Of a DNA stretch of 64,000 nt, positions 11,509-57,513 are shown piece after piece (the stretch's first letter is position 1; each line of letters opens with the position of its first letter). A model generated the notes under the pieces. That model saw nothing but the letters and a program-made list of their open reading frames with translations, ran no database searches and was not told the origin of the DNA. The translations under genes and the position numbers were made by a program. The stretch is from a virus: positions 1 to 64,000 of the IMG/VR virus record IMGVR_UViG_3300025646_000024, one strand, 5' to 3'.

Positions 11509-12150
11509 ATGTACGAAATAATCAGAGAAAAAGACGAAGTAGAAATTGGCTCTAAGACTGGTGGGTTAGTTCCAAAGAAAAAAAGAAGTCCAGCTAATCA
11601 ATATAAGTATGAAAAAGAAAGAAGAGAAAATTTAAAGAAGAAACCAGGAATGACTGGTGATAGTCCATTGATTCAAGCACTTCGTAGAAGAGCACAAGTC
11701 ACTGGAAACTATGCAGAAAGCAAATCGTATTCTCAGTTCCTTGAAGAAGCATTTAAGAGAACAGGTAAAACAATAGGTTTCAAGGTATTTCATCATGGAT
11801 CTGATGCAGACTCAGTTAAAAGCATAAAGAAAGGTGGACCCAAACCATCACCAAAGGGAAGTGAAGGTCCAGGGCATTATGTTACTCCAGATAAAAAGAA
11901 AGCAGACAAATATGCAGAGTTTACTTCTAAACAGAGAAAGAAAAAGCCAGCAACAGTATCATACAGAGTACCAAGCAAAAGAGTAGCTAAAACAGATACT
12001 ATTCCAAAGGGACTGACATCACAGCAAAGAACAACAAAGGAAAAGCCAGTCATTCAAAATACTAGAACTGGTCATGTTGCCATGGATGCAGATTATGCAA
12101 ATTCAAAAATGATACGTAATCCATCACCAACTATTCGTAAAAGAAAGTAA
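11509..12150 (+). CDS. Putative capsid-targeted ADP-ribosyltransferase-like protein
   Basis: The 213-residue basic protein contains SYSQFLEEA at residues 73-81, matching the T4 capsid-targeting sequence (MKTYQEFIAEA in internal proteins), with a gp21-type cleavage context L-E-E|A. Next comes FHHGSDADSVKSIKKGG (94-110) and GHYVTPDKKKADKYAEF (122-138), the H-G-[ST] and G-x-Y-x-T...A-x-x-YA pattern of small ADP-ribosyltransferase/PARP-like folds. A catalytic Glu is not obvious (E178 is a candidate). An exact late promoter sits directly upstream, as expected for a virion protein. The role, an enzyme packaged in the head and injected like T4 Alt, is inferred. Confidence 0.55.
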   Translation: MYEIIREKDEVEIGSKTGGLVPKKKRSPANQYKYEKERRENLKKKPGMTGDSPLIQALRRRAQVTGNYAESKSYSQFLEEAFKRTGKTIGFKVFHHGSDADSVKSIKKGGPKPSPKGSEGPGHYVTPDKKKADKYAEFTSKQRKKKPATVSYRVPSKRVAKTDTIPKGLTSQQRTTKEKPVIQNTRTGHVAMDADYANSKMIRNPSPTIRKRK

Positions 12151-13938
12151 ATGGCTTTAGAAAAATGGGATTTAGGCAAAGAGCTTATGCAATGTCTTGC
12201 ATTTGCTCATTTTGCTGTATATAAGTATTCTAAAAGGACAGAAGATGAACATGAACAATTATTCTATGATTTGTTTGATCCAGATATAGCTATTGATACA
12301 AAACCATATAAAAAGCATCTGGGCGAAAACTTTCAATTCACTAGAGTGTTTGAAAACTGGCCAACCACACTCACACCTGCGACTGGAGAAAAGAGTGTCG
12401 ATATTGGAGTCAAAATAGTTTATGATGTAGCTAAAAATTTTTATCATAGAAATTTAATATCTAAAAACTTTCAGTTGTATCAATTTGTAGATCAGACAGA
12501 TCCATTCATGAAATTGATTAAAACTGAGTGTTTATCTAAAATAATAAAGGCAGCTAAATTGCCAATTAAAGAAGATGTATTGTCGAGTGCAGATATTTAC
12601 ATTGTGAAGATAGCAGAAAAAAACAAAATTGAAACTGAATTCACAAATGAAATACTGAGAAAATCTGATTTATATTTAATCAATAACTTTGATAAGTATA
12701 ATGAAATACTAGAAGCACATTGGACCAAACATTCTTTATTTGGAGTGTCGTTAAAACTTCCATCTACCAATGGGACAAAAAATATAAAAATAGTTGGAAA
12801 GAAAGATAATAAAATTGGAAAGAAAATGCTTAAGCATGTTGATCCATATAGTAAATTTATTGCTATGCTTTCTGATCCAAATGCAAACATTAACAAACTG
12901 ATAACTGAAACAGTAATATTTGATCACAATGGTATGGATATCAATAGAGTGGGGCAATGGAAATTTCCAGTAACTTTTAGATATAAAGAGTTGGGATTAT
13001 ATGAAAATGATGTGAAGTTTAATTTACTGGCATGGCCAAAAGCACAAAAAGATGGAGGGGGCACTGCAGGATTCAACGGACAATTTTTTGATACTCCTGG
13101 ATATAGTTCTCAGTGGGTGGGTGGAACTGGAGTCAAACCACTTGAGAATTTTCTGTTTAAATATCCAGAATTTAATAGAATTAATAATGAATTAATATCT
13201 ATTCGTAAAAAGGCATTAAATTATGCTCTATCTGGCAGTGTAAACAAATCAGTTAATTTAACCCAACAAATCAATACTGATATACAAGTAAATAAACCAA
13301 TTGGATCTGGCAAAACACCAGTCTATAGAAAATTAAAGAAGACCGATCCCAAGACTTCATATACTAAAGATGGCATGTATTCTAGAATGACTTATTTGAA
13401 GGGTCAGCAAGGGAAATATGATTACGGTGCCAATCCAACAAAAGATACTAAAAATTATAAAATGAAAATTAATAACTTGCAGACTTTATATTCCAGAGCA
13501 AAGCGAGATATATCAAAACCAGTATTTGTAGCTGGATCTGAGAGACAAAGTAGTTTAATTAAATTTATATCAGAATACGAATCTGCTACTGGGAGATCAA
13601 ATATATTAAATATCTATAGAACTGCAGTTGTAAATTTAATTTTAAAAAAAGAGCTACAGCATGGATTGAATAGAGATGATTCTGAAATTAAAACTCATTT
13701 TGAGAATGCTCAAATATCATATTTTTTAACTCGTGGTGGCCCAAATTTACATCTATACTTAAAGCAAAGAATATTCTTAACTGTATTTGGGGTTATTACA
13801 AAAAAATCATATAAAGTGTTCTTGAATAATATGACTGGAACTACACAAATGATTAGTGCAATTAAAGCACAAGTTATGAAAAGTATGATGAAAAATATAA
13901 AAGAGTTTGATACGGTACCACACTTCTACATGTCTTGA
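12151..13938 (+). CDS. Large unidentified protein co-transcribed with the ART-like gene (595 aa)
   Basis: Begins on the base after the previous stop, so it shares the late promoter at 11479. The protein is Lys- and aromatic-rich. Residues about 145-220 contain SSADIYIVKIAEKN and, about 60 residues later, LFGVSLKLPSTNGTKNIKIVG. The order (x-D-I-Y-I ... G-V-S-L-K) resembles the core of PD-(D/E)XK nucleases that have an SLK variant of motif III, but this is weak. No capsid-targeting motif is present. No other domain is recognised. Its stop codon overlaps the -35 box of the next promoter. Confidence 0.6.
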   Translation: MALEKWDLGKELMQCLAFAHFAVYKYSKRTEDEHEQLFYDLFDPDIAIDTKPYKKHLGENFQFTRVFENWPTTLTPATGEKSVDIGVKIVYDVAKNFYHRNLISKNFQLYQFVDQTDPFMKLIKTECLSKIIKAAKLPIKEDVLSSADIYIVKIAEKNKIETEFTNEILRKSDLYLINNFDKYNEILEAHWTKHSLFGVSLKLPSTNGTKNIKIVGKKDNKIGKKMLKHVDPYSKFIAMLSDPNANINKLITETVIFDHNGMDINRVGQWKFPVTFRYKELGLYENDVKFNLLAWPKAQKDGGGTAGFNGQFFDTPGYSSQWVGGTGVKPLENFLFKYPEFNRINNELISIRKKALNYALSGSVNKSVNLTQQINTDIQVNKPIGSGKTPVYRKLKKTDPKTSYTKDGMYSRMTYLKGQQGKYDYGANPTKDTKNYKMKINNLQTLYSRAKRDISKPVFVAGSERQSSLIKFISEYESATGRSNILNIYRTAVVNLILKKELQHGLNRDDSEIKTHFENAQISYFLTRGGPNLHLYLKQRIFLTVFGVITKKSYKVFLNNMTGTTQMISAIKAQVMKSMMKNIKEFDTVPHFYMS

Positions 13939-13963
13939 CATGGCTGGGGCTTCATGGTAGGAT
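13935..13963 (+). promoter_or_regulatory. Sigma-70 promoter, TTGACA-N17-TAGGAT, at a small inverted repeat
   Basis: TTGACA (13935-13940) overlaps the previous stop codon and lies within the palindrome CATGTC-TT-GACATG (13929-13942). The -10 TAGGAT (13958-13963) is exactly 17 bp away. It drives the helicase gene and so returns to early-type expression after the late island. Confidence 0.7.
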
Positions 13964-13984
13964 GGATCCATTCGTTCATCACCC

Positions 13985-15226
13985 ATGAAGCTCCGTCCTC
14001 ACCAAGCCCGAAGCCTCACCAAGATGGAGCTGGTTAAGCTTGGCCAGATCTATGTCCCCACTGGTGGTGGCAAGACTCTGATTATGATTCGTGATCTCAT
14101 GCGTAGATTATCAGAATCAGACAAACCATTCACTGCACTGATTGTTGCTCCTCGCATCCTGCTTGCGAATCAGTTATGTGCAGAGTTCACACAAGATATT
14201 AAAAATGCTGTAGTTGCTCACATTCACTCAGGTGAGACCAAGCATTTCTCTACAACTAATCCTGATCATCTTACCATGTTTCACAACATGGTTAAATCTA
14301 CCAATGAACACCAACTACTTTTTACTACTTATCATTCTCTTCATCGTGTTGTTGACAGTGGAATACACATTGATACAGTCTACTTTGATGAGGCTCACAA
14401 TGCCTGTAAGCGAGACTTCTTTGTTTCTACTGCAATGATGTCTCAACATGCAGAGTCTGCATACTATTTCACTGCCACACCTAAACTGTCACAGAATCCA
14501 AAAGGTCGTGGCATGAATAACTCTATTGTGTTTGGACAGGTGATTGAGAATGTACCTGCACCCGAACTGATTGAGAATGGTAGCATCATTCCTCCAATGG
14601 TTCAAATTCATGAAGTAGATGGTGAGCGTGAGAAAGAAAATGCAGCAAAACATGATGCTAAAACTCTGTTATCTATTCTTGATGGCCTAGATGATACTAA
14701 AGCTCAAAAAGTGCTAGTTGCTGCACCTAGTACCAAAGTGTTGTGTCAAATGCTATTTCGTACTGATGTGATGCATCAGTTCAAACAACGTGGCTATGAT
14801 ATTCTGCACATTACATCAAAGGAAGGTGCATATGTCAATGACAAGAAAGTGAATCGTGAAGTATTCTTTGACACCATGACTCAGTGGGGTCAGGATAGGA
14901 CAAAGAAGTTTGTGTTATTTCATTATTCTATTCTGAGTGAAGGTATCAACTGCCCAGGGCTCACCCACTCTGTGCTCCTGCGAAATCTCAACGTGATTGA
15001 AATGTGTCAAACTATTGGCCGAGTTATTCGTGTTGATAGAGAAGATGCTGCAGATATGGCCAATGGTGTTCTCACTCCTGGTGATTATCTGTCCTATCGG
15101 AAATCATATGGGTTCGTGACTGTACCAGTCCACAAGAACTATGGCAAGAACACCCAGCAGCGGCTGCAGAGCGTGGTAGACTTTGTGTTCAGGCAGGGCA
15201 TCCCTCCTGAGTACTATGTTGACTGA
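13985..15226 (+). CDS. uvsW: SF2 DNA/RNA helicase, UvsW-like
   Basis: The 413-residue protein has the superfamily 2 motifs in order: Walker A YVPTGGGKT (about residues 23-31), Ia IVAPRILLANQ, DEAH box YFDEAHN (about 133-139), motif III FTATPKLS, and motif VI QTIGRVIRVDRED (about 345-357). It is shorter than T4 UvsW (503 aa), which also has an N-terminal extension. UvsW unwinds branched DNA and R-loops and governs the change from origin-dependent to recombination-dependent replication. It has its own promoter and is monocistronic, ending before a hairpin at 15236. Confidence 0.85.
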   Translation: MKLRPHQARSLTKMELVKLGQIYVPTGGGKTLIMIRDLMRRLSESDKPFTALIVAPRILLANQLCAEFTQDIKNAVVAHIHSGETKHFSTTNPDHLTMFHNMVKSTNEHQLLFTTYHSLHRVVDSGIHIDTVYFDEAHNACKRDFFVSTAMMSQHAESAYYFTATPKLSQNPKGRGMNNSIVFGQVIENVPAPELIENGSIIPPMVQIHEVDGEREKENAAKHDAKTLLSILDGLDDTKAQKVLVAAPSTKVLCQMLFRTDVMHQFKQRGYDILHITSKEGAYVNDKKVNREVFFDTMTQWGQDRTKKFVLFHYSILSEGINCPGLTHSVLLRNLNVIEMCQTIGRVIRVDREDAADMANGVLTPGDYLSYRKSYGFVTVPVHKNYGKNTQQRLQSVVDFVFRQGIPPEYYVD

Positions 15227-15235
15227 GCCAGTTCA

Positions 15236-15282
15236 CGGGCTGTCACATATCACTTGACAGCCCAGCCAATCTGACCTATTGT
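15236..15282 (+). promoter_or_regulatory. Hairpin with embedded -35, promoter TTGACA-N17-TATTGT
   Basis: A perfect 9-bp stem GGGCTGTCA/TGACAGCCC contains TTGACA (15254-15259) in its right arm. The -10 TATTGT (15277-15282) follows after 17 bp. The hairpin closes the helicase unit and the promoter opens the next, using the same bases. Confidence 0.65.
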
Positions 15283-15332
15283 GTCTTTGTTGACACGGAG
15301 GTTTCTTGACCTACACACGACGACGCAAACGC

Positions 15333-15569
15333 ATGAACAATCACAACTATACCTGGGCTGAAGCTCTAGGTGCTATTGCAGGACTTATCATTGTAGCAGT
15401 ATTTGCATTCTCCTTGACTGCACTGTTCATGATTCCTGTAGCATGGATGATTCACTGGATTCTAGTGAATTTGTTCAGCTACACTGTACTCACTCTCTGG
15501 CAAGTCTGGGGTATCATTCTTGGTGTTCGACTTGTATTCTCTGGTCTTGTAACTGTAAACAAAAACTGA
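15333..15569 (+). CDS. Small membrane protein (78 aa)
   Basis: The start at ATG 15333 is preferred to the upstream TTG. Two long hydrophobic segments are visible, at about residues 10-37 (LGAIAGLIIVAVFAFSLTAL) and 40-70 (a stretch rich in Trp, Leu, Val and Ile). It ends in a short polar tail. A two- or three-pass inner-membrane protein of unknown role. Confidence 0.65.
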   Translation: MNNHNYTWAEALGAIAGLIIVAVFAFSLTALFMIPVAWMIHWILVNLFSYTVLTLWQVWGIILGVRLVFSGLVTVNKN

Positions 15570-15571
15570 TC

Positions 15572-15805
15572 ATGAATGAAGGTAACATCACAGTCACTCT
15601 GACTGAATCCCAGCACGAACTGCTGAATGAGATTTTATGCCATTCAATGGATGCATTTCAACTTGTATCTCCATATGATGATGGTATGTGGGATCTGCCA
15701 CTTGACAATCCTATCATTCAACGCTATACTATGGTTGAGAACCTTCGGGAACTCTTCTATGAACTTTGGTCTGATCGTTTCACCCCAACTGAGGAAGTTC
15801 TTTGA
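15572..15805 (+). CDS. Small acidic protein (77 aa)
   Basis: ATG 15572 lies 2 nt after the previous stop. It starts MNEGNITVTLTESQHELLNE, then is mostly helical, ending LWSDRFTPTEEVL. The opening beta strand followed by helices resembles small DNA-binding or regulatory proteins, but no family is assignable. The stop overlaps the next ATG by one base. Confidence 0.6.
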   Translation: MNEGNITVTLTESQHELLNEILCHSMDAFQLVSPYDDGMWDLPLDNPIIQRYTMVENLRELFYELWSDRFTPTEEVL

Positions 15806-15978
15806 TGCTACCATTTCTTCTTGCCACTGTGGTTCAGTATGATTTCCTATCGACTCCTGTTCCTGAAAGTATTGCAAAGCAATGTGCCAGTGATGTTGGT
15901 ATTCCTTGGGCTAGTGATAATTTTAGTGATACTGAATGGCAAGAGTTTAAGCGTTGTATCATTCATAGGGTAAAGTAA
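15805..15978 (+). CDS. Small putative exported protein (57 aa)
   Basis: Starts on the last base of the previous stop (TGATG). The first 12 residues are hydrophobic (MLPFLLATVVQY), a possible short signal, and two cysteines follow (C27, C51) that could pair outside the cytoplasm. The C-terminus, TEWQEFKRCIIHRVK, is helical. It is one of several short secreted-looking proteins in this cluster. Function unknown. Confidence 0.5.
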   Translation: MLPFLLATVVQYDFLSTPVPESIAKQCASDVGIPWASDNFSDTEWQEFKRCIIHRVK

Positions 15979-15979
15979 C

Positions 15980-16306
15980 ATGGCACAACTCTGGAGAGCA
16001 ACAATCCGAACTCAATCCAATGTTTTACAGAATGTTGAGATTGAAACACCAGGCATTGTACGGCAAGATGCTATTGCACAAGTTAAATCAACCTATGGTG
16101 CAAAGGAGGTTATTACCTGCAATCCTATCAGTTCATCTTCATCATCTAGTTCTGGATCCAGTTATTCATCTGGTTCATCTGATGGTAGTTGGTTCTGGAT
16201 ATTGCTTTTCGGTGCAATGATGGCAGTCTATGTATTTCGTTATGTAATTTTAGTTGCATTGATTATCTTTGCAATCTATTTTATCTACAAATGGCTTAAC
16301 AAATGA
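15980..16306 (+). CDS. Membrane protein with serine-rich linker (108 aa)
   Basis: The N-terminal 48 residues form a small alpha/beta domain (LWRATIRTQSNVLQNVEIET ... VKSTYGAKEVITC). A Ser/Gly-rich linker (ISSSSSSSSGSSYSSGSS) follows, then a long hydrophobic region, about residues 71-104, able to cross the membrane twice. A small domain tethered to the membrane by a flexible linker is thus likely. Its stop overlaps the next ATG. Confidence 0.7.
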   Translation: MAQLWRATIRTQSNVLQNVEIETPGIVRQDAIAQVKSTYGAKEVITCNPISSSSSSSSGSSYSSGSSDGSWFWILLFGAMMAVYVFRYVILVALIIFAIYFIYKWLNK

Positions 16307-16935
16307 AAAGTATTCGCTTCATTGGTGATGTTCATGGTAAATGGAAACAATACAAGAAGATCATCAGTGAATGTGATACTTCTATTCAGGTGGGTGATTT
16401 TGGAGTGGGCTTTATTAGTAAAATCACTGAGGCAGTTCACTCCAATCCACCATATGATTCCATGAAAAAAGGTGATCATCGCTTTATTCGTGGAAATCAT
16501 GATAATCCAAATGTATGTAAGAAGCATCCATTCTGGATACCAGATGGTACAATAATTCATGATAAGATCTTCTGTGTTGGTGGTGCAAAGTCTATTGACA
16601 AATCATACCGAACAGAAGGTTATGATTGGTGGGCTGATGAAGAGCTAGCATACTCAAAATTATTAAAGATGTATGATGAGTATGAAAAACTCAAGCCATC
16701 AGTGATCGTAGCACATGAAATGCCAGAAAGCCTGACATACATAGTCTGTGCAAAGTGTAATATGACAAAACTTAACGATGTGTCTGTCACTCGTTTGTTT
16801 TTTGATAATATATTAGAGTTACACAAACCAGACCTCTTTATTCATGGGCATTGGCATGTCAATCACCATACCATGCACAATGGTGTTGAGTATATTGGTC
16901 TGGATGAATTAAATTACGTGGACCTGGAATTATGA
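16303..16935 (+). CDS. Calcineurin-like metallophosphoesterase
   Basis: The 210-residue protein carries the full metallophosphoesterase series: FIGDVHGKW (about residues 6-14), QVGDFGVG (about 29-36), RGNHDNP (about 64-70), VIVAHEMPE (about 132-140) and IHGHWHVNHH (about 180-189). These residues bind two metal ions and hydrolyse phosphoesters. The substrate cannot be read from sequence; members act on phosphoproteins, Ap4A, cyclic nucleotides or DNA. The gene overlaps both neighbours and is therefore part of the early operon starting at 15254. Confidence 0.88.
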   Translation: MKSIRFIGDVHGKWKQYKKIISECDTSIQVGDFGVGFISKITEAVHSNPPYDSMKKGDHRFIRGNHDNPNVCKKHPFWIPDGTIIHDKIFCVGGAKSIDKSYRTEGYDWWADEELAYSKLLKMYDEYEKLKPSVIVAHEMPESLTYIVCAKCNMTKLNDVSVTRLFFDNILELHKPDLFIHGHWHVNHHTMHNGVEYIGLDELNYVDLEL

Positions 16936-17087
16936 ACGATGAAGACTGGACTAACCTTAGCAACATGCACAAGGAGTTGACAAAAAACCATTTAGCAGCC
17001 TATGATACAGCATATCTTGAGAAGTACGCTGAGCTTCTTGCGAAATCACTTGAAGGGAAAGGAGACCCACATCATGACGGAGACTGA
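16932..17087 (+). CDS. Small acidic protein (51 aa)
   Basis: Overlaps the preceding stop (ATGA) and the following start by 14 nt. The sequence MNDEDWTNLSNMHKELTKNH and the following YDTAYLEKYAELLAKSLEGKG are helical and acidic, with a His/Asp tail (HHDGD). Not recognised. Confidence 0.55.
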   Translation: MNDEDWTNLSNMHKELTKNHLAAYDTAYLEKYAELLAKSLEGKGDPHHDGD

Positions 17088-17295
17088 TTATTCAATTTAT
17101 CTCTCACATACAAATGCTATGGAGAGAATGGATAAGTTCAATCAGCGTGCAGTGAAGGCTAAGACCTACAAAACAATGCACAAGAACTTTAGAATTGCTG
17201 ATGCTCTTTATGCAGAGTATCGTGAACTGATCGAAGAAGATCAAACCTATGTTACACTTTGTCTAGATCACCTTGAGGGTATTATCAATGATTGA
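17074..17295 (+). CDS. Small helical protein (73 aa)
   Basis: ATG 17074, following the GGAGACCC sequence at about 17060 (a good ribosome-binding site), gives MTETDYSIYLSHTNAMERMD and an all-helical product rich in Arg, Lys and Glu. No known family. It overlaps the next gene by 8 nt. Confidence 0.6.
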   Translation: MTETDYSIYLSHTNAMERMDKFNQRAVKAKTYKTMHKNFRIADALYAEYRELIEEDQTYVTLCLDHLEGIIND

Positions 17296-17473
17296 AACCA
17301 CTACATTCCCAGTTGAAGTTAATGCTATTGCAGCTGTTGCTGGACTAGCTGGAGCACTTGTTGTGATTCTTTACGCATTCACACGGAACCATCAGTATGA
17401 AATGCGGAAACGTATGCGGAGCATCAGGAAGGCTAATGAGTCAGAGGTTGACATGCCCCCGCAAATCGGTTAA
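17288..17473 (+). CDS. Small single-pass membrane protein (61 aa)
   Basis: ATG 17288. Residues 10-32 form one hydrophobic segment (VNAIAAVAGLAGALVVILYA), followed by a strongly basic stretch (RNHQYEMRKRMRSIRKANES) that would stay in the cytoplasm. The last 26 nt of the gene overlap the next promoter. Function unknown. Confidence 0.6.
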   Translation: MIETTTFPVEVNAIAAVAGLAGALVVILYAFTRNHQYEMRKRMRSIRKANESEVDMPPQIG

Positions 17474-17490
17474 TCTACTGGGGTAGTCAA
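17448..17490 (+). promoter_or_regulatory. Promoter TTGACA-N17-TAATCT within an inverted repeat
   Basis: TTGACA (17448-17453) and TAATCT (17471-17476) have 17-bp spacing. TTGAC...CCCC (from 17448) is mirrored by GGGG..GTCAA (17480-17490), so the promoter is bracketed by complementary arms that could form an operator or hairpin. Confidence 0.65.
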
Positions 17491-17502
17491 GGGAACCAAC
17501 CC

Positions 17503-17754
17503 ATGAACGACATCATCACACTCACGCCAGTCAAGCCCAGAACTCGTGAGGTGTATCATTACACCACCAGCCGCTGGGATTGGCAAGATGGTAATGTAAA
17601 CCAGATGTGGATTGAGCAAGTGGATGAAGACCAATACGTTGCCATCGCCCACAATCCAGCAAAAGGTGCTAGTATGGTGATGTCGAACCCCAGAGGCTAT
17701 CATGATACGCTACAATGGGTTCGACAGTTCTGTGGTTCCTTCTGCATTCTCTGA
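17503..17754 (+). CDS. Hypothetical protein (83 aa)
   Basis: First gene after the promoter at 17448. It starts MNDIITLTPVKPRTREVYHY and includes aromatic beta-like stretches (WDWQDGNVNQMWIEQVDED). There are two Cys in the last nine residues (CGSFCIL). No recognised family. Confidence 0.6.
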   Translation: MNDIITLTPVKPRTREVYHYTTSRWDWQDGNVNQMWIEQVDEDQYVAIAHNPAKGASMVMSNPRGYHDTLQWVRQFCGSFCIL

Positions 17755-17756
17755 TC

Positions 17757-17918
17757 ATGAAAAACTACAAAGTTGTTGTAAAAACCTATGATGGTCTGTG
17801 TACTATCTGGTATGAAAAGTCTAAAGCAAAGTCTGCAACAGATTTGATTTGCCGTCGTGTGCATGAACAACTCTGTGGACTTAACATCAAGCAAATTGAA
17901 GTTTCTCTCTCGGTATGA
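17757..17918 (+). CDS. Small hypothetical protein (53 aa)
   Basis: ATG 17757, two bases after the preceding stop. The beta-alpha-beta-like sequence MKNYKVVVKTYDGLCTIWYE then ATDLICRRVHEQ is compact and basic. No family. Its stop overlaps the next start (ATGA). Confidence 0.55.
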   Translation: MKNYKVVVKTYDGLCTIWYEKSKAKSATDLICRRVHEQLCGLNIKQIEVSLSV

Positions 17919-18579: not shown

Positions 18580-18589
18580 CCATACACCA

Positions 18590-18611: not shown

Positions 18612-18639
18612 AGTTTCAGTTCCATCGCAACCACCTCCA

Positions 18640-19281: not shown

Positions 19282-19620
19282 ATGCGTACTTTCAGACAAT
19301 TCCTAGAAGAAGCAAAGAAGAAGAAGCCACTATATTCCGAAAAGCAAATCATGAAAGCCCTAAACAAACAAGGTGGAATTGGTGGTAAAGCAGTAGAAAA
19401 GTATAATCAACAGAATCCAGATAGAGGACCAAGAGAGTATAAACTAGGTGAAGATATTCAACAGAGACAACAACAACTTAATACAACACAGAGAGAAAGA
19501 CTACAAGCAGAAAGAGAAAGAGTAGCAAAGTATAAAGCAAAGAGACAAGCAGATGTAGAGAGAGAAGATGAACAAGATGAAATTATTAAACGAATAGAAA
19601 TCATTAACAAAAATAAGTAG
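19282..19620 (+). CDS. Small charged protein with N-terminal capsid-targeting motif
   Basis: From ATG 19282 the protein starts MRTFRQFLEEAKKKK, almost identical in plan to the T4 internal-protein targeting peptide MKTYQEFIAEA, and includes the gp21 cleavage context L-E-E|A. The remaining 100 residues are Lys/Arg/Gln/Glu-rich and helical (RQQQLNTTQRERLQAERERV), like a DNA-associated internal head protein. An ATG at 19258 would add eight residues. A late-type promoter precedes it even though its neighbours are early genes. Packaging with DNA and injection are inferred by analogy to T4 IPI-III. Confidence 0.65.
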   Translation: MRTFRQFLEEAKKKKPLYSEKQIMKALNKQGGIGGKAVEKYNQQNPDRGPREYKLGEDIQQRQQQLNTTQRERLQAERERVAKYKAKRQADVEREDEQDEIIKRIEIINKNK

Positions 19621-26875: not shown

Positions 26876-27514
26876 TTAGTCTTTACCTCTCTTTGGATTT
26901 TCAACTCCTAGTCTTGCTCTTGCAGAATTACGATTCAATCTGAATCTCTTAGTCAGGTCTTTACCTGTCTTAACTGCTTCTTTTCCTTCTTTAGACTTTC
27001 TAAATTGCTTTTCTTGTGATGCCATGCTTTTCATCACAAATCTTGGAACTGGCTGATCTCTTTTTGCATTTCTTGCAAATGATCTCCTTTGTGATGTTCT
27101 AGGTGATACTGTAGTAATAGATCTAAAATCAGCATCTTTCTTTAGACTATCATCAGTGCTCTTTTTAAACTTTGGATTAACATTAGTGTTATCCTGAATT
27201 CTTGGCTTAGATTTATCTGCGTTTCTTAGTCGATTCATTGTAAGTTTGTGGACTTCAGGAAACTTAGATTGATTAGATCTATTACCATGAATTGTTTCTC
27301 GTGCATCATCATATCCAGTTGCAGTTCCACCAGTCTTCTTGGCTAGCCCTTTTGCCATTGTTGATTTACCAGAGCCAGGCATTCCAGCCATTTTAATATC
27401 TAATGGTGCACTAGATTTGCCACTCTTTGCACCTGGCTTTGGTGTTCTACCTTGCTTTGATGCAACTTGTGATCTTCTAGAAGATTCTAAAAGAAATTCA
27501 GAATATGTCTTCAT
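26876..27514 (-). CDS. Capsid-targeted P-loop kinase (PNK/zeta-like)
   Basis: The only minus-strand gene found. The 212-residue protein begins MKTYSEFLLESSRR, very close to the T4 internal-protein targeting peptide MKTYQEFIAEA, with L-L-E|S as a possible gp21 cleavage site. A P-loop kinase follows: Walker A GMPGSGKST (44-52), YDDAR (68-72) and DNTNVNPKF (108-116), the DxTN signature of polynucleotide-kinase-like enzymes, then a long basic tail. The minus-strand upstream region contains ATAAATAT, a late-promoter variant. The combination suggests a kinase packaged in the head and delivered into the host. The substrate is unknown. Confidence 0.7.
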   Translation of the reverse strand: MKTYSEFLLESSRRSQVASKQGRTPKPGAKSGKSSAPLDIKMAGMPGSGKSTMAKGLAKKTGGTATGYDDARETIHGNRSNQSKFPEVHKLTMNRLRNADKSKPRIQDNTNVNPKFKKSTDDSLKKDADFRSITTVSPRTSQRRSFARNAKRDQPVPRFVMKSMASQEKQFRKSKEGKEAVKTGKDLTKRFRLNRNSARARLGVENPKRGKD

Positions 27515-27572
27515 ATAATTGAATTTTTTAAATATTTATTTCGGCTATATACTGTAGTTTTAAATACAATAC

Positions 27573-49809: not shown

Positions 49810-49813
49810 AATT

Positions 49814-50191: not shown

Positions 50192-50214
50192 TTAGAGAAA
50201 CCTCTATATTAATA

Positions 50215-50753: not shown

Positions 50754-50771
50754 CTATTAGGAAGTAAAAAA

Positions 50772-52523
50772 ATGGCAACAATTATTAAAATTAAAAGATC
50801 TTCTGGAACTAGTCAACCAAACCTTGGTCAAGGTGAATTAGGTTATTCCTGGGGTGCTGGAACTTACACAGACGCACAAAATGCCACAGTATCATCTTAT
50901 GGTAAGATGTACTTGGGTACTGGTACTGAAACTAGTGGAATTGCGGCAAACATAGAAGTTATTGGTGGTAAGTATTTCACCGATATGCTTGACCATGGAC
51001 ATGGTATATTAACAGCAAACTCAGCAGTTATTGTTGATTCTGCGAGTAAAATTAATGTTTGGAATGTAGATAATTTAAGCCTAGATGCAAATACAATTTC
51101 ATCTACTGATACAGATGGAGACATTGTAATTGACCCAAATGGTACTGGGGAAATTGTTGTTCCAGATGATACATATTTAACTTTTGGTACAAGTAAGGAT
51201 ACTAAAATTAAATATGACGAAGCTACTGACGATAGACTAGAAGTAACTGGTGCTGATTGGAATTTTGCATCTGGTGTTGCAATCAGTGTTAGTGATAGTA
51301 CTGCATCCACAGATACAACTTCTGGAGCTTTTGTTGTATCTGGTGGAGTTGGTATTGGAGGAAATCTAAATGTAGGTGGTTCCTTAAATTCTGGATCTTT
51401 AACTGTAATTGATTTTACAGCTTCTGGAGATTTAACAGTTCAAGGTGGAGATATTAATGTAATTGCAACCGCAACAAATATTAATATTAAAGATAATACT
51501 CCTAGTGCTCTTGCAATTAAAGAAGGTACTAATGAATATATTAAAATTGACACTACAGATGGTTTTGAATTAATTACATTAGGAACTTCAAATGTTGTTA
51601 TTTCTAATGATTTGTCAGTTAATGGTGGAGATCTTACAACAAATCAAACTACATTTAATCTATTAAATGCAACTGCTACTACAGTAAATGCATTTGGTGC
51701 TGCAACCACTATTAACATTGGTACTTCTGCAACTACTACAGACTTTGGTGATTTAAAAATTAATGGATCTACTATTTTTGGAGATGAAAATGGTCAAACT
51801 ATTACCCTTGATCCTTATCCTGCTGGTGGAGACGCTGGTGGTGATGTCGTTGTCAGGGGTAACTTTAAGGTAACTGGTACTACAACTACGGTAAATTCTA
51901 CCGTAATGACAGTAAATGATCCAATCTTTACCTTAGGTGATGCTATCAGTGAAAAGGTACTAAAAAATTCTGCATCTAATGGTGCAACTACACTAACACT
52001 TGATAATACAACAGGTTTAAACACTGGCGATATTATCACTGGAGATGCAAATATTCCTGCAAATACTACAATTACAGTAGATAATGCAACACAAGTAACA
52101 TTAAGTGCTGCATTGACAGGTGGGATTGCAGCTGGAACTACTCTGACCTTCACTCAAGGTGCAGATGATAACATGGATCGTGGTATTGAATACAGATACT
52201 ACAACGGAAGCCTTAAGACTGGATTCTTTGGTTATGATGAATCTGGAATCTCTGAGGATGTAACCACATATTATTTCACATATATTCCAGATGCAACAAA
52301 TAGTGGAAACGTATTTACTGGAACAAGAGGTAGTGCATACTTCAAGACTGTAAAGCTTGATGATGGTGTTCTAAATGGTGTTGCATTCTTTGATCAGTAT
52401 AAGAGACTAACTAGAACAGTAGCAGCAGGAACTTCTGATGCAACTACTTCTAATCAAATTTTAACTGTAGATGGATCTGGAGTTCCTGTTTGGACTACAA
52501 CTCTTGACGGTGGAACCTACTGA
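50772..52523 (+). CDS. Tail fibre-like protein (583 aa)
   Basis: N-terminal KIKRSSGTSQPNLGQGELGY is the attachment-domain pattern of cyanophage tail fibres (IxxKRSxxxxxxPxxLxxGELAY). The shaft contains VSGGVGIGGNLNVGGSL, ATTINIGTSATTTDFGDL and TVNSTVMTVNDPIFTLGD. The C-terminal 60 residues are a separate domain (GVAFFDQYKRLTRT ... LTVDGSGVPVWTT). There is no intramolecular-chaperone-like end. Likely one of several receptor-binding or whisker fibres. Preceded by TAGGAAGTAAAA (ribosome-binding site). Confidence 0.78.
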   Translation: MATIIKIKRSSGTSQPNLGQGELGYSWGAGTYTDAQNATVSSYGKMYLGTGTETSGIAANIEVIGGKYFTDMLDHGHGILTANSAVIVDSASKINVWNVDNLSLDANTISSTDTDGDIVIDPNGTGEIVVPDDTYLTFGTSKDTKIKYDEATDDRLEVTGADWNFASGVAISVSDSTASTDTTSGAFVVSGGVGIGGNLNVGGSLNSGSLTVIDFTASGDLTVQGGDINVIATATNINIKDNTPSALAIKEGTNEYIKIDTTDGFELITLGTSNVVISNDLSVNGGDLTTNQTTFNLLNATATTVNAFGAATTINIGTSATTTDFGDLKINGSTIFGDENGQTITLDPYPAGGDAGGDVVVRGNFKVTGTTTTVNSTVMTVNDPIFTLGDAISEKVLKNSASNGATTLTLDNTTGLNTGDIITGDANIPANTTITVDNATQVTLSAALTGGIAAGTTLTFTQGADDNMDRGIEYRYYNGSLKTGFFGYDESGISEDVTTYYFTYIPDATNSGNVFTGTRGSAYFKTVKLDDGVLNGVAFFDQYKRLTRTVAAGTSDATTSNQILTVDGSGVPVWTTTLDGGTY

Positions 52524-52529
52524 TAAATA
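52522..52529 (+). promoter_or_regulatory. Late-promoter-like GATAAATA
   Basis: GATAAATA overlapping the stop of the fibre gene; one base from consensus; precedes the neck-gene series. Confidence 0.5.
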
Positions 52530-52549
52530 ATTAAAACCATGAGGTAATT

Positions 52550-52765
52550 ATGAATCCAGATGAAGTAAACAATTTGTTGTCAGTCATGCAAAAGAAAATA
52601 AATGATCTGACATCTCAAAATATTATGCTTGAAGCTAAGGTAATTTACCTTAATAATATTGTAACTTCACTGCAAAAACAAGTTCCTGTGTCTGATGGAG
52701 GATCTTTCGGTGAATCTTCTGACACAGAAACTAAAGAACCAGTAAAATCTAGAAGGTCAGCATAA
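52550..52765 (+). CDS. Small coiled-coil protein (71 aa)
   Basis: MNPDEVNNLLSVMQKKINDL then MLEAKVIYLNNIVTSLQKQV is a coiled coil of about 45 residues with an acidic, disordered tail. Its stop abuts gp13. Possibly a chaperone or small virion component; no T4 counterpart recognised. Confidence 0.65.
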   Translation: MNPDEVNNLLSVMQKKINDLTSQNIMLEAKVIYLNNIVTSLQKQVPVSDGGSFGESSDTETKEPVKSRRSA

Positions 52766-53586
52766 TGGCAAAACCAAGTAGCAGAGTACAATTAAAAGAA
52801 TATTGTCTTCGTAAACTTGGTAAGCCAGTGATTGAAATTAACGTGGACGATGATCAGATTGAAGATCTAATTGATGATACCATTCAACTCTTCAATGAAA
52901 GAGCATATAATGGTATGGAGAGAACGTATTTAAAATATAAACTTAGTCAAGAAGATATTGATAACGGGAAGAAAAGAAACTTCACTACAACTACTACAGA
53001 TACCAACGAATCTGATAATTCTAGAACTTTAAATTTTGAAGAAGGTAGAGGATATTTAACAATACCAGATCACGTTATTGGTGTGCAAGGTATTTTTAAA
53101 GTATCAAATGCTTTTGTCAATAATATGTTTGGTTTTAGATACCAGTTTTTCTTGAATGATTTTTATAACTTTTATTCTTATGATATCATGAATTATTACA
53201 TGGTATTAACTTATCTTGAAACTCTGGATTTTATGTTAGAGGGTAATAAAGATATTAGATATAATAAAGTTCAAAATAGATTGTACATTGATTTAGATTG
53301 GGGTATGCAATCTAAAGATGATTTTATAGTTATTGATTGTTATAGAGCTTTAAATCCAAATGAATTTACAAAATTATATGATGAAATTTGGGTTAAGAAA
53401 TATTTGACTGCATTAATCAAAAAACAATGGGGGCAAAATTTAGGTAAATTTGAAGGAATTCAAATGCCAGGTGGAGTTACATTTAATGGCAGACAATTTT
53501 ATGATGATGCAGTACAAGAAATAGATAAATTAGAAGAAACTTTAATGACAACTTATTCTTTGCCACCACTTGATATGGTAGGATAA
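52765..53586 (+). CDS. 13: Neck protein gp13
   Basis: 273 residues against 309 in T4 gp13. The opening SSRVQLKEYCLRKLGKPVIE then INVDDDQIEDLIDDTIQLFN is the conserved gp13 N-terminus. The later DIMNYYMVLTYLETLDFM and KKYLTALIKKQWGQNLGKFE with the end PGGVTFNGRQFYDDAVQEID are also characteristic. gp13 with gp14 forms the head-completion ring between portal and tail. It starts on the last base of the previous stop and overlaps gp14 by one base. Confidence 0.93.
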   Translation: MAKPSSRVQLKEYCLRKLGKPVIEINVDDDQIEDLIDDTIQLFNERAYNGMERTYLKYKLSQEDIDNGKKRNFTTTTTDTNESDNSRTLNFEEGRGYLTIPDHVIGVQGIFKVSNAFVNNMFGFRYQFFLNDFYNFYSYDIMNYYMVLTYLETLDFMLEGNKDIRYNKVQNRLYIDLDWGMQSKDDFIVIDCYRALNPNEFTKLYDEIWVKKYLTALIKKQWGQNLGKFEGIQMPGGVTFNGRQFYDDAVQEIDKLEETLMTTYSLPPLDMVG

Positions 53587-54683
53587 TGAAAAACGTTTAC
53601 TTTTCACATGGAACTTCATCTGAACAGAGACTCTATGAAGATTTAATCATAGAGTCTCTGAAAATATATGGATTTGATGTTTATTATCTTCCAAGAGAAA
53701 TTTCTCAAGATGATAGATTATTTGGAGAAGATCCACTTGCATTGTTTGATGAAAACTACATGATCGAGATGTATGTGTCAAACTATGAGGGTTTCACTGG
53801 AGAAGGAACCCTGTTAACTAGGTTTGGTGTACGAATTGCAGAAGAAGCTACGTTTATTATATCAAAAAGACGTTGGGAAGATTTAATATCATCTTCTAAT
53901 AATTTAATTTCTAGTAAAAGACCTAATGAAGGAGACGTAATTTATTTCCCACTAACAAATCAATTATTTCAAATTAAATTTGTAGAACATAATAAACCAT
54001 TCAGGCAATTAGGACAGATTGCAACTTATCAACTAGTTTGCGAAGTAATGGAAGATTCCAGTGAAAGATTTGAAACTGGAATTGATGAGATTGATAATAT
54101 TAGAAGAGATGAAGGATATTCTATTACGTTTAATTTAACAGAAGGTATAAAACAAATCAATGTTCTTACAAGTGGAACTGGATATACTGCGTCTGGAACT
54201 ACTATTACAATAGGATCTATATATGGTGCATCTGGAGCAACAGCTGCAGCAACAGTCTCCTCGGGAACAATTACTGGAGTAAAAGTTATTGAACCTGGAA
54301 CTGGATATACAACTGTTCCATCAGTTACTATTAATGGTGCTGGAACTGGAGCTACTGCACAAGCAGTGTTAGCTCTCAAAGGAAATTATAAAGTTGGTGA
54401 AATAGTAATTGGTTCTAAAAGTAATGCAAGAGGAAAAGTTATTCGATATGATATTTCAAACAAGGAATTAGAACTTATAGATATAGTAGGAACATTTGTG
54501 GATAATGAACTTCTTGTTGGACAAACAAGTAATGCTCAATGGATCACAAATTCATTTAGTTCTATAGAAAATCAAAATGATGATTTCAATGAAAACAAAT
54601 GGTTTGAAGATCAAGGTAACACACTTGTTGATTGGTCCGAAAGAAATCCATTCGGTGAATATACAAATATGGGAGACTTCTAA
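53586..54683 (+). CDS. 14: Neck protein gp14 with inserted Gly-rich domain
   Basis: 365 residues, about 110 more than T4 gp14 (256). The N-terminal half MKNVYFSHGTSSEQRLYEDL ... FGEDPLALFDENYMIEMYVS and the end EDQGNTLVDWSERNPFGEYT are gp14 sequence. Residues about 185-265 (INVLTSGTGYTASGTTITIG; VIEPGTGYTTVPSVTINGAG) are two Gly-rich beta repeats followed by a KGNYKVGEIVIGS segment, apparently an insertion. It shares these repeats with gp8 and the gp7-like protein. The insert may decorate the neck surface. Confidence 0.92.
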   Translation: MKNVYFSHGTSSEQRLYEDLIIESLKIYGFDVYYLPREISQDDRLFGEDPLALFDENYMIEMYVSNYEGFTGEGTLLTRFGVRIAEEATFIISKRRWEDLISSSNNLISSKRPNEGDVIYFPLTNQLFQIKFVEHNKPFRQLGQIATYQLVCEVMEDSSERFETGIDEIDNIRRDEGYSITFNLTEGIKQINVLTSGTGYTASGTTITIGSIYGASGATAAATVSSGTITGVKVIEPGTGYTTVPSVTINGAGTGATAQAVLALKGNYKVGEIVIGSKSNARGKVIRYDISNKELELIDIVGTFVDNELLVGQTSNAQWITNSFSSIENQNDDFNENKWFEDQGNTLVDWSERNPFGEYTNMGDF

Positions 54684-55480
54684 TGTTAGGCACACATTTT
54701 TATAACGAATCTATTCGCAAAACAATTATTGGTTTTGGAACATTATTTAATAACATTGAATTACAACGAAAAGATAAACTTGGTTCTGTTCAACAAACTA
54801 TTAAAGTTCCATTGGCATATGGTCCAATTGAAAAATTTCTTGCAAGGGTTGAAGCTGAACCAGATTTAGATAAGAGACGACCAACTCAAATTCAATTACC
54901 TAGAATTTCATTTGAAATGAAAGGAATTTCATATGATCCATCTAGGAAACTTGGACCAACTCAGGTTTGCAGGACTCCAAAAGACGGAGAAACTGACATA
55001 ACATATTCTCATTATATGCCAGTTCCATATAATTTAGATTTTGAAGTTGCAATTATTAGTAAGAATAATGATGATGCAGTTCAAATTTTAGAACAGATTC
55101 TACCTTTCTTTCAACCATTTTTTTCAGTCACAATTAATATGGTAAGTGAAACAGATGAGAAAAAAGATATTCCAATCTTATTAAATAATGTTTCTATTCA
55201 AGATGATTATGAAGGAGATTTCAAAGTAAGAAGAACAATTATATATACTTTAACTTTTACAGCAAAATCATATATCTACGGTCCAATTACGACTTCAGAT
55301 GTAATTAAGAAAGTTAATGTTGATATTGGAACTGCAATTAATGCAAATCGTTATATTACCTATAGTGCAACGCCAAAAGCACTTGAAGATTTAAATAATG
55401 ATGGACAGATTAATGCAGATGATGATCTACTAGTTGAACCAGAAGATAATTTTGGATTTAATGAAATTTGGACAGAATAA
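54683..55480 (+). CDS. 15: Tail completion/sheath terminator gp15
   Basis: 265 residues, near T4 gp15 (272). MLGTHFYNESIRKTIIGFGT then LFNNIELQRKDKLGSVQQTI and PLAYGPIEKFLARVEAEPDL plus GPTQVCRTP are diagnostic. gp15 forms the hexameric cap at the end of the contracted or extended sheath and binds the neck. The C-terminus contains an acidic NNDGQINADDDLLVEPED segment. Overlaps gp14 by one base. Confidence 0.93.
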   Translation: MLGTHFYNESIRKTIIGFGTLFNNIELQRKDKLGSVQQTIKVPLAYGPIEKFLARVEAEPDLDKRRPTQIQLPRISFEMKGISYDPSRKLGPTQVCRTPKDGETDITYSHYMPVPYNLDFEVAIISKNNDDAVQILEQILPFFQPFFSVTINMVSETDEKKDIPILLNNVSIQDDYEGDFKVRRTIIYTLTFTAKSYIYGPITTSDVIKKVNVDIGTAINANRYITYSATPKALEDLNNDGQINADDDLLVEPEDNFGFNEIWTE

Positions 55481-55482
55481 TT

Positions 55483-55896
55483 ATGTCATCATACGATAAC
55501 TTAGATGATGTATTCAATATAGTTCCACAAGATTCCGAAAAGGAATTAACTACTGTGGAAGTAGATTCAGATCTAGATCATATTGAAGCAGACTATCAGT
55601 ATAGTAGAAATCAACTATACAAATTAATTCAGAAAGGTCAGCAAGCTATAGATGGTATTATAGATGTAGCCTCAAGTAGTGATCACCCAAGGGCTTATGA
55701 AGTAGCATTTCAAGGGATGAAACATGTCTCTGATATGACTGACAAACTTATTGATCTACAAAAGAAAATGAAAACAATTGAAGGGGATGTTCCACAGAAG
55801 GGACCATCTACTATTAACAATACTATGTTTGTTGGATCTACTGCAGAACTTCAAAAGTTTCTAAAACAATCAAAAATAAATAATATAGAAGAATAG
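55483..55896 (+). CDS. 16: Small terminase subunit gp16
   Basis: The start ATG 55483 is preferred to TTG 55468, which would add five residues over gp15. The 137-residue protein has a coiled-coil/helical core (SDLDHIEADYQYSRNQLYKL then IQKGQQAIDGIIDVASSSDH) and the end QKGPSTINNTMFVGSTAELQ, both characteristic of the T4-type small terminase. It recognises DNA and regulates gp17. A DUF5661-type gene and another gene lie between it and gp17, unlike in T4. Confidence 0.9.
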   Translation: MSSYDNLDDVFNIVPQDSEKELTTVEVDSDLDHIEADYQYSRNQLYKLIQKGQQAIDGIIDVASSSDHPRAYEVAFQGMKHVSDMTDKLIDLQKKMKTIEGDVPQKGPSTINNTMFVGSTAELQKFLKQSKINNIEE

Positions 55897-55906
55897 GAGT
55901 ATTTTA

Positions 55907-56458
55907 ATGTCTGTACTTAAAGTCGTGCAAAATATTGCTGCAGTAGCTTGCACTGGTGGTAATGCTGTTCAATCTGCAGCCGTCATTGTTAAAAGTGGAA
56001 TTTATCGTTTCACTGCTGATACAAGTGACGCAATCCATGTTGCTTGGGGTGGCAATCCAACTGCAGTAGATGGAAATGACTTTCATATTCCAAAAGAGAA
56101 TTCTGAGATTGTGAAGTGTGCAACTCCCAAAAAAGTAAGAATTACTTCAATCACTAAAGGAGCAACAAATACTGTAATGAATATTCCACTTGATACTGGT
56201 ACTCCTGGACATCCTTTTGCAGTTGGTGATTATGTAACTCTCACTGGATCTTCCGTTGCTGCATATAATACTGGAATTGCACACTTAGCAGTTACAGCAG
56301 TTACCGATACTTCAATTACAGTTGCACTAGATTCATCTGAATATGCTGCATTCACTGGAACTGCAACTCTTTCTAATTCAATCAAGTTTTCTGTAAAGCC
56401 TGATGGAAATGGTGCTGCTACAGGACACATCACTGAAGTACAGATTGTAGGTGGATAA
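55907..56458 (+). CDS. Beta-rich virion protein (183 aa)
   Basis: All-beta composition with Gly, Thr and Val: SGIYRFTADTSDAIHVAWGG then FAVGDYVTLTGSSVAAYNT and TVTDTSITVALDSSEYAAFT (approximate). Looks like a jelly-roll or Ig-like head-decoration or fibre protein. It lies between the terminase subunits, a place where T4-like cyanophages often carry extra virion genes. Ends on the first base of the next gene's ATG region (TAATG). Confidence 0.6.
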   Translation: MSVLKVVQNIAAVACTGGNAVQSAAVIVKSGIYRFTADTSDAIHVAWGGNPTAVDGNDFHIPKENSEIVKCATPKKVRITSITKGATNTVMNIPLDTGTPGHPFAVGDYVTLTGSSVAAYNTGIAHLAVTAVTDTSITVALDSSEYAAFTGTATLSNSIKFSVKPDGNGAATGHITEVQIVGG

Positions 56459-57513
56459 TGGCACAAAAAAGAGTTCCTACTGAAAAAGAGATTGCCAAAA
56501 AACATGGCGTATCTGTAGATTATGTTACACGACAAGCTGAGATAGGCTCTACAGTAGAAAGAGAGCATGTCACCAAGCATGACGAAGCCTACAATATTGC
56601 ACTTCAGCATATAGCAGAATTTCCAGATTACTACAAGCATTTACTCAAAATGGAAAAGAAACTCAAGGGAGAATGGAAAAATGGAAAAAAAGCCGTTAAA
56701 GAAGAAAAAGAAGAGACTCGTTATTGCCATCTTTGCGAAAAGCCAGAAAAAAAATCTGAATGTTCTTATGGACCTAGTGCATGGGAAATGAACACTAGTC
56801 TTTTGAACATGCAAGAAGATCATAAAGAAATTGCATCTGGAAAGATGAAAGATCATGAAGGTTACATGGCAAAACTTGAATTGGATCAAATGGAAAGATC
56901 TATTGCCATGCTTCGCAAAGTTATTCGCAAATCAAATCAACAACTTCCAGCTTGGGTGCAATCTAAAATTACCAGAGCTGCTGATTTTGTAGATACTGCT
57001 GCAGAATATCTTTCATCTGATGAAAAATTAAGTGAACAAAAATCATTTTCACAGTTTGTGAGAGAGGCTAGTTTTGAAATTGATCCCGAACATAATAGAT
57101 TCAAAAAACAAAAAAAGATTAGAGATCTTGCAGTTAGAACCAACAATCGTGGAGAAAGGACAGCTGCAGAAAGAAAAATAACAGGACCAGCTTATCAAAA
57201 ACCAAAACCACAAAAAACTGTGTATATTCAACGAAGCGGTCAATTAAATACTGAGGGGGCTGCATGGCAACGTAAAGAAGGTAAAAATCCCACAGGAGGA
57301 CTAAATGCTGCAGGTAGAGCTTCTGCTAAAAAACAAGGAATGAATTTGAAACCTCCAGTTACTAAACCACCTTCAGAATTAAATCCAGATTCAGAAGCAG
57401 CTAAAAGAAGAAATTCATTCTGTGCAAGAATGGGAGGAAATCCTGGACCAATGAAAGACGAAAAAGGTAGACCAACAAGAAAAGCATTAGCTTTGCGTAA
57501 ATGGAATTGTTAA
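56458..57513 (+). CDS. DUF5661/DUF6321 protein with internal capsid-targeting motif (351 aa)
   Basis: Residues 8-65 (EKEIAKKHGVSVDYVTRQAE ... EHVTKHDEAYNIALQHIAEFP) match DUF5661. Residues 89-102 hold CHLC...C, a possible zinc site. Residues 163-185 read LPAWVQSKITRAADFVDTAA, and 196-204 are SFSQFVREA, a capsid-targeting/gp21-cleavage-like motif. Residues 266-351 (EGAAWQRKEGKNPTGGLNAA ... FCARMGGNPGPMKDEKGRPT) match DUF6321. Cutting at V-R-E|A would separate two halves. The position between gp16 and gp17 and the motif suggest a packaged internal protein. Function unknown. Confidence 0.7.
   Translation: MAQKRVPTEKEIAKKHGVSVDYVTRQAEIGSTVEREHVTKHDEAYNIALQHIAEFPDYYKHLLKMEKKLKGEWKNGKKAVKEEKEETRYCHLCEKPEKKSECSYGPSAWEMNTSLLNMQEDHKEIASGKMKDHEGYMAKLELDQMERSIAMLRKVIRKSNQQLPAWVQSKITRAADFVDTAAEYLSSDEKLSEQKSFSQFVREASFEIDPEHNRFKKQKKIRDLAVRTNNRGERTAAERKITGPAYQKPKPQKTVYIQRSGQLNTEGAAWQRKEGKNPTGGLNAAGRASAKKQGMNLKPPVTKPPSELNPDSEAAKRRNSFCARMGGNPGPMKDEKGRPTRKALALRKWNC

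Follow-up and report, generated by a model that had tools for sequence, protein, structure and literature searches.

Why do four otherwise unrelated proteins of one uncultured T4-like phage share the same short motif, and does that motif send them into the phage head? The question is raised by a 64-kb window (the whole stretch of DNA analysed here) of the 80,263-base IMG/VR phage record IMGVR_UViG_3300025646_000024. A reading of this DNA from its letters alone, hereafter the sequence-only reading, had noted four sites resembling the capsid-targeting sequence (CTS) of the T4 internal proteins IPI, IPII and IPIII, and had proposed that a modular arsenal of effectors is loaded into the head and injected with the DNA. 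All four sites were recovered where that reading had placed them (Table 1), in an ADP-ribosyltransferase (ART)-like protein, a small basic protein, a polynucleotide kinase (PNK)-like kinase and a DUF5661/DUF6321 protein, called 11509, 19282, the kinase and 56458 below. We consider it likely that the motif serves as a T4-type sequence for capsid targeting and cleavage, through which proteins would be loaded into the head and ejected with the DNA, and we find its core on enzymes that mass spectrometry has detected in the virions of cultured cyanophages.

Table 1 Motif sites, genes, predicted promoters and module examples. Positions are those of the window unless a record or locus is named; L followed by a number denotes a locus.
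Feature	Position	Strand	Details
SYSQFLEEA	11725..11751	+	Residues 73-81 of open reading frame 11509-12150; predicted gp21 cut after residue 80
MRTFRQFLEEA	19282..19314	+	Motif TFRQFLEEA from 19288; predicted cut after residue 10
MKTYSEFLLES	27482..27514	-	Motif TYSEFLLES at 27508; open reading frame 26876-27514; predicted cut after residue 10
SFSQFVREA	57043..57069	+	Residues 196-204 of open reading frame 56458-57513, internal; predicted cut after residue 203
ART-like protein (11509)	11509..12150	+	213 amino acids, net charge +29; 72-residue N-terminal extension, capsid-targeting motif, ART domain
Small basic protein (19282)	19282..19620	+	112 amino acids from ATG 19282; 120 amino acids from ATG 19258
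P-loop, PNK-like kinase	26876..27514	-	212 amino acids, net charge +32; Pfam, PHROGs
DUF5661/DUF6321 protein (56458)	56458..57513	+	351 amino acids; DUF5661 (residues 10-68), middle region, motif, DUF6321 (275-349); both Pfam families above cut-off
TATAAATA, T4 late-promoter consensus	11479..11486	+	30 bases upstream of the ART gene; predicted
AATAAATA, late-promoter-like	27533..27540	-	26 bases upstream of the kinase gene; predicted
gp21 prohead protease (Peptidase_S77)	record 63966-64619; window part 63966..64000	+	E = 1.6e-34
gp22 scaffold	record 64661-65800, outside the window		T4_CASP, E = 1.4e-71
gp23 capsid protein	record 65871-67262, outside the window		After gp22
EGYA-module examples	L010:3449-4624; L174, L193, L208, L215, L219, L233, L238, L247, L248, L251, L265, L268, L269

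The pattern [ST][FY]xxF[LV]xE[AS] has exactly four matches in the 102 non-overlapping open reading frames (ORFs) of at least 60 amino acids in the record, against a mean of 0.019 (maximum 1) after 1000 residue shuffles and a mean of 0.013 (maximum 1) for 300 column-permuted patterns on the same ORFs. The T4 protease gp21 has the cut consensus (L/I)-x-E; the predicted cut sites here read L-x-E in three motifs and V-x-E in 56458. Positions 4 and 7 of the IPIII CTS serve targeting and positions 8 and 10 processing (PMC9026906), and all four motifs have [FY]-x-x-F, with aromatics at CTS positions 4 and 7. By net charge per residue the kinase ranks 1st among the 102 ORFs, the ART-like protein 2nd, the 19258/19282 ORF 7th and 56458 12th, in agreement with the basic T4 internal proteins (PMC9026906).

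A T4-type CTS requires both a gp21-type protease and a gp22-type core, and the phage encodes the two together with gp23. The window itself holds a T4-type late gene block that includes the gp15 tail sheath stabiliser (Pfam), and one region of it matches annotated cyanophage genes for terminase, sheath, tube and portal. The gp22 of the same phage (L002) itself begins MSNVLDTEFDEFLEEG and shares a core (EFDEFLEE) with the tag.

Virion proteins are listed for two cultured cyanophages: S-CREM2, with 52 virion proteins with coordinates (PMC10665884 Table 3), and S-SCSM1, whose record flags 48 coding sequences (CDS) as virion and whose paper gives 45 (PMC9602691). The record of S-CREM1 is without virion flags; it was not counted as a proteome, and its N-termini are cited as sequence only. 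The tag core, [FYL]xx[FY][LIVMF]xE starting at residues 2-6, was searched over the 501 annotated CDS and is present in 6/100 virion compared with 2/401 other CDS (exploratory p = 0.0011) and, in S-CREM2 alone, in 5/52 virion compared with 1/167 other CDS (p = 0.003), while reversed and permuted patterns (residues 2-25) match 0/100 virion CDS. In S-CREM2 the virion matches are a SAM lyase (MKDFDSFLEE), a kinase (MKRFDAFLTE), a cytidylyltransferase (MKNFSSFLTE), ORF13 (MKDLHSFLTE) and ORF136 (MQTFSMFFSE); S-SCSM1 adds an NMNAT (MKSFLQFLKE), and the non-virion matches are SSCSM1_30 (MKTFKQFMSES) and S-CREM2 gp175. Two endolysins aside, the S-CREM2 virion proteins classed by the authors as non-structural number four, and all of them carry the core; in ORF12, labelled a CRISPR-Cas9 nuclease by the authors, it takes the form RFASFMAE at residue 18, and for this virion protein (L184:7704-10313, minus strand) Pfam gave no family at E 0.01. 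NMNAT begins with the core in 10/10 cyanophages examined (S-CREM2, S-SCSM1 and eight more, namely seven cyanophages among 9 of 40 listed rows, plus S-CREM1); it is absent from the start of the homologs in pelagiphage HTVC008M and jumbo phage PA5oct. The S-CRM01 kinase, which is reported from virions (PMC10665884), starts MISFDQFLSE, and that of S-H34 has a degenerate MRLSQFNENA only.

The tag recurs in environmental viral DNA. A strict form, MKT[FY]x[QE]F[ILM]xEA searched as DNA, occurs in at least 120 stretches in IMG/VR, compared with 0 for a permuted order of the same codon classes. The same search of a 257-Gb bacterial and archaeal collection gave 4 matches, one with neighbours that read as a T4-like phage contig (L335), one inside a long ORF (L334) and two in ORFs of 43 and 40 amino acids (L333 and L336). 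Analysis of 80 loci from the at least 120 viral stretches yielded 88 tagged genes, on unrelated bodies. Pfam finds 14 families on 61 non-redundant complete tagged proteins: CTP_transf_like (3), DUF5661 (3), GNAT (Acetyltransf_7; 2), glucosaminidase (2) and single cases of SAM lyase, DPBB, PARP, DUF6321, DUF6267 and others. Three of the 61 match PHROG 2667, 'internal head protein'. Such a spread over many unrelated domains is what the sequence-only reading had proposed to look for. The tagged bodies are basic, with a median of +0.088 charges per residue (n = 73) versus -0.012 for other ORFs at the same loci (n = 584). Among 30 of the longer tag contigs, gp23 is present on 12 and gp21 on 13, and both are on 6/7 contigs >100 kb. 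The strict pattern also has 13 matches, versus 0 for the backward pattern, in 49 T4-like and related records, 7 of which were chosen as the window's own or as holding relatives of the four genes and 42 by gp21 alone, and 3 versus 0 for the control in 39 DUF6321 records. The presence of one tag on unrelated proteins and on virion-detected enzymes suggests a standard way to pack ready-made proteins with the DNA. One group of tagged genes of ~104-117 amino acids lies near cyanophage terminase genes (L176-L180, S-CREM1 137282-137611 and SSCSM1_30; PHROG 1742 for L180); these proteins start MK[ST][FY]xQF[LM]SE followed by [IV]xG/SGDFNG, and are not virion-flagged in S-SCSM1.

At the kinase, the part ahead of the cut has been exchanged. 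The window kinase is 93% identical to that of contig L010, whose sequence L011 shares, and the likeness begins exactly at the predicted cut (MKTYSEFLLE|SSRRSQV versus SILGEVIVE|SSRRSQV). Upstream of it, the window kinase has MKTYSEFLLE and L010 an unrelated module of ~189 amino acids ending in EVIVE; at the DNA level, too, the two match only from the codon immediately ahead of the cut onward, and both upstream parts keep hydrophobic-x-E at the junction. A chance or compositional resemblance, unconnected with the head, is highly improbable as an account of the motif: the pattern is short and degenerate and two of its four copies are internal, but this account has to contend with the shuffle and permutation controls, the tag at the starts of proteins with unrelated bodies, its association with virion proteins and a homology break that falls exactly at the cut site.

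The stretch that takes the place of the CTS ahead of the kinase in L010 and L011 contains a recurring module of ~45 residues, roughly DLYDVILxHLLDEGYAxTxExAExIMxNMSEEWRxxIVE and here called the EGYA module, which many proteins encoded near tagged genes have internally or at the C terminus. In several of these it overlaps PHROG 3708 and PHROG 22522 (unknown function), and those scanned have no Pfam match. A hidden Markov model (HMM) made from 16 segments that resemble the end of the L010 module, including one from the L010 contig, gave a single match, SSCSM1_89 (E = 1.4e-9), among 1183 proteins and ORFs of S-CREM2, S-SCSM1, S-CREM1 and the window phage; SSCSM1_89 is a flagged virion protein in the S-SCSM1 record. 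Plain regular expressions for the module were not significant against the two proteomes (3/100 versus 3/401, p = 0.10; 2/100 versus 2/401, p = 0.18), and the HMM is the more specific test but rests on one match.

The kinase body scores above the Pfam cut-off for AAA_33 (38.5 bits, cut-off 27, E = 1.7e-9) and matches PHROG 505 (E = 4.8e-11), so that the PNK-like label given from the sequence alone holds, as does the DUF5661/DUF6321 label of 56458; for 11509 the ART-like label holds by predicted fold, but its Pfam scores fall below cut-off, and no Pfam family was found for 19282. From its family, the kinase may act in RNA or DNA end repair. It had no match by sequence among solved structures at E 0.01 and no tblastn match at E 1e-5 in a 50,697-record phage collection; its structure model was too poor to be used (mean predicted local distance difference test (pLDDT) score 57.8), and a PADLOC and NCBIfam scan of the window proteins gave weak matches only, none decisive. 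On the L011 contig the kinase gene is immediately followed by two tagged genes, MKTYSEFLVE.. and MKTFAQFLEE... In the sister phage, the two tagged genes right after that of the kinase (L181:3720-4355 and 4358-4963; G004) have no Pfam or PHROG family.

The ART-like protein carries its motif behind an extension, and a cut after residue 80, as predicted from the sequence, would free ART residues 81-213. Its relatives, at seven loci of viral contigs, differ in what precedes the motif: L005 and L007 begin with it as MKSYKEFVSEAFKR and L008 as MKTYKQFLEEAQRR, L006 has a start codon two residues ahead of TYNQFLEEAFKR, and in L003 and L004, as in the window, ~72 residues come first. L009 keeps extension and motif, and its protein ends soon after the motif. 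As some relatives start at the motif, the internal copy of 11509 seems to be an N-terminal tag with an extension fused ahead of it. The structure model (pLDDT 81, predicted template-modelling score 0.70) assigns the motif to a helix at the N terminus (model residues 2-13), with an ART-like domain after it. Foldseek against the PDB returned PARPs, cholix, exotoxin A and tankyrases (best E = 9e-3, 0 under 0.001); KptA/Tpt1 lead the VIA structural matches (Z up to 8.8 over 83-89 residues), followed by diphtheria-type and tankyrase domains; and BFVD gave 4 matches under 0.001, one of them an ART-PolyVal-like protein. The model thus supports an ART fold for the 11509 body, which does not reach the curated cut-off of ART-PolyVal (PF18760; 16.5 bits versus 31.2). 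A histidine is conserved in 12/13 aligned tagged proteins, and H-G-[ST] in 10/13 (row L203 is doubtful), which suggests an ART of the H type and not of the R-S-E type of T4 ModA/ModB (PMC5512222). Like the kinase, 11509 had no tblastn match at E 1e-5 in the 50,697-record collection.

Directly downstream of the ART gene, a 595-amino-acid protein (12151-13938) has the same place in L003, L004 and L009; no family was found for it in Pfam, PHROGs, NCBIfam or PADLOC. As a candidate relative of the virion protein SSCSM1_90 it was rejected (match not significant; only 5 loci with relatives). A near relative of the window phage (G007; gp21 98% identical) has a second kind of tagged ART-like protein of 136 amino acids (L175:3884-4294) and a tagged 397-amino-acid protein with a FGRFNPP nucleotidyltransferase motif (L174:3139-4332).

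The internal copies in 11509 and 56458 could also be disused scars of gene fusion, with only N-terminal copies at work. The T4 CTS is N-terminal (PMC9026906), the tagged protein of L009 ends shortly after the motif, and one 56458 relative, L020, is without the motif at the junction. We judge this quite unlikely, given that the motif is retained in the 11509 relatives L003, L004 and L009, that 56458 relatives keep it at the same junction in different wording (KSFSEFMNE in L014, KTFDDFLTE in L018, MRSFGQYIKE in L019), and that T4 itself removes a 65-residue propeptide from gp23 and cuts gp22 at several places (PMC9026906). For both internal cases, relatives or separate genes begin with the tag; in the same neighbourhood of S-CREM1, a separate gene starts MKTYNDFITE|VAAWQRKEG and ends in DUF6321-type RAWNC.

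The 56458 family is linked to virions. Same-locus DUF6321 proteins were detected in virions of S-SCSM1 (SSCSM1_29, E = 3e-22) and S-CREM2 (ORF137, E = 3.5e-10). On 39 of 80 DUF6321 contigs (~12 kb or longer, forms sorted by hand), gp23 is present on 0/23 with a short untagged DUF6321 versus 5/16 with other forms (p = 0.008); as the tag is seen in only two (L057 and L085) of the five gp23-bearing contigs, the result speaks for a link to T4 heads more in the case of the longer DUF6321 forms than in that of the tag. Given its place among structural genes, 56458 may contribute to the head core or to virion structure instead of acting as an effector. The sequence-only reading is thus supported in part: a modular tag on unrelated bodies with a gp21-fitting cut site holds, and the core is enriched among the virion-detected proteins of two cyanophages, but the effector role given to 56458, which lies in the virion gene block, is doubtful.

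These observations could be extended to all tagged proteins, such that the tag would belong to the prohead core and the cargo would act inside the head, in core scaffolding, DNA condensation or size control, without being an injected effector. The place of the DUF6321 proteins among virion genes and their detection in virions, the EFDEFLEE start of the window phage's own gp22, the basic tagged bodies, as expected of DNA-binding core proteins, and the influence of T4 IPIII on head assembly (PMC9026906) would all fit. Nevertheless, we regard it as unlikely, because the ART, NMNAT, GNAT, SAM lyase and kinase have no evident head role, T4 IPI inhibits a host restriction enzyme (PMC9391042) and host-made IPIII without its CTS restores infection (PMC9391042).

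Several observations weigh against a packaging role of the tag. Only the kinase and 19282 have the motif at the N terminus, the place of the T4 CTS, and 11509 and 56458 have it internally; 19282 has no informative relative, only an identical one being found. The virion data come from phages other than that of the window, and the authors of the S-CREM2 study remark that virion enzymes might be carry-over and ask for verification (PMC10665884). S-SCSM1 alone is not significant (1/48 versus 1/234, p = 0.31), the tagged SSCSM1_30 of this phage lacks a virion flag, and a control with the final E replaced gives 7/100 virion versus 18/401 other CDS (p = 0.21). The core pattern was loosened after some N-termini were known, which makes the proteome p-values exploratory. 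As an N-terminal DNA pattern the strict tag is sporadic, in 4/42 gp21-chosen records and with 0 matches in one of 192 kb. Late promoters, on which the sequence-only reading had leaned, do not discriminate: [TCA]ATAAATA precedes 19/84 tagged genes and 117/565 other ORFs, without enrichment. TATAAATA lies <=80 bases upstream of 6/84 tagged genes versus 67/565 other same-locus ORFs, and was set aside as evidence; 19282 has only a CTAAATA-type site upstream, similar to that of gp20, and 56458 has no late promoter within 100 bases upstream.

On balance we favour the CTS reading, and from the sequence we infer that the ART-like protein, the kinase and the 19282 product are packaged. The tagged genes would be expressed late, each protein would dock by its short motif in the prohead's gp22 core, and gp21 would cleave after [L/I/V]-x-E; the freed, mostly basic body would remain with the packaged DNA and be ejected with it. 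In 11509 and 56458 the tag would have become internal through fusion of another protein ahead of it, and cutting there would release the same body as in relatives with an N-terminal tag. Once in the cell, the ART would immediately modify macromolecules of the host, and the 19282 protein would be a small basic protein like the T4 internal proteins. Phage PNKs are known from RNA repair against anticodon nucleases, and the kinase could similarly phosphorylate nucleic-acid ends. A broader proposal, which we put forward tentatively as possible rather than probable, is that aquatic T4-like phages have a general head-loading code, in which cleavable modules (the CTS and 'EGYA..MSEEW..IVE') can be placed on nearly any enzyme, injected effectors (ARTs, kinases, NMNAT, SAM lyase, acetyltransferases and others) form an exchanged kit and the tag alone predicts virion cargo. 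The tag would allow prediction of injected cargo in phage genomes from metagenomes, among it the ART and kinase families unmatched in the phage collection searched, and would add candidate early counter-defence or take-over proteins, like T4 IPI and IPIII (PMC9391042).

A CTS on diverse T-even internal proteins and the packaging of ARTs in myovirus heads are already published. As in T4 IPI, IPII and IPIII, whose CTS are gp21 substrates, we find a motif of ~10 residues with matching key positions on diverse basic bodies, and T-even internal proteins are described as having little in common beyond the CTS (PMC3012670). In contrast to T4, the tag here is on enzymes (ART, kinase, NMNAT, GNAT, SAM lyase and wall hydrolases) of cyanophages and other environmental T4-like phages, is sometimes internal after fusion and is once replaced by another module. 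Among the open-access papers found, capsid targeting is treated for T4, SPN3US and P1 only, and in their available text we found no statement of a CTS on cyanophage virion enzymes or of its replacement by a different module at the cut site. Like T4 Alt, a head-packaged ART, 11509 has its ART-like domain after an N-terminal stretch that gp21 is predicted to cleave. In ModA/ModB of T4 and their family, the ART active site is R-S-E (PMC5512222), whereas the protein here has a conserved H, and its predicted fold comes closest to those of PARP, diphtheria-type and KptA domains. In their work on polyvalent proteins and head-packaged ARTs of phages, Iyer, Aravind and co-workers also predicted head packaging for effector domains such as ART and GNAT (PMC5512222, PMC9503650); there, packaging was deduced from head-protein fusion or gene neighbourhood and the available text describes no short tag, whereas here small separate proteins have a common cleavable tag. 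Finally, SAM hydrolase, APH-like kinase and cytidylyltransferase/NMNAT are the enzymes reported from virion preparations of S-CREM2 and S-SCSM1, in reports whose available text mentions no targeting sequence and leaves carry-over open (PMC10665884, PMC9602691); a tag that marks these cyanophage virion enzymes, whose presence was unexplained or suspected to be carry-over, makes the question testable.

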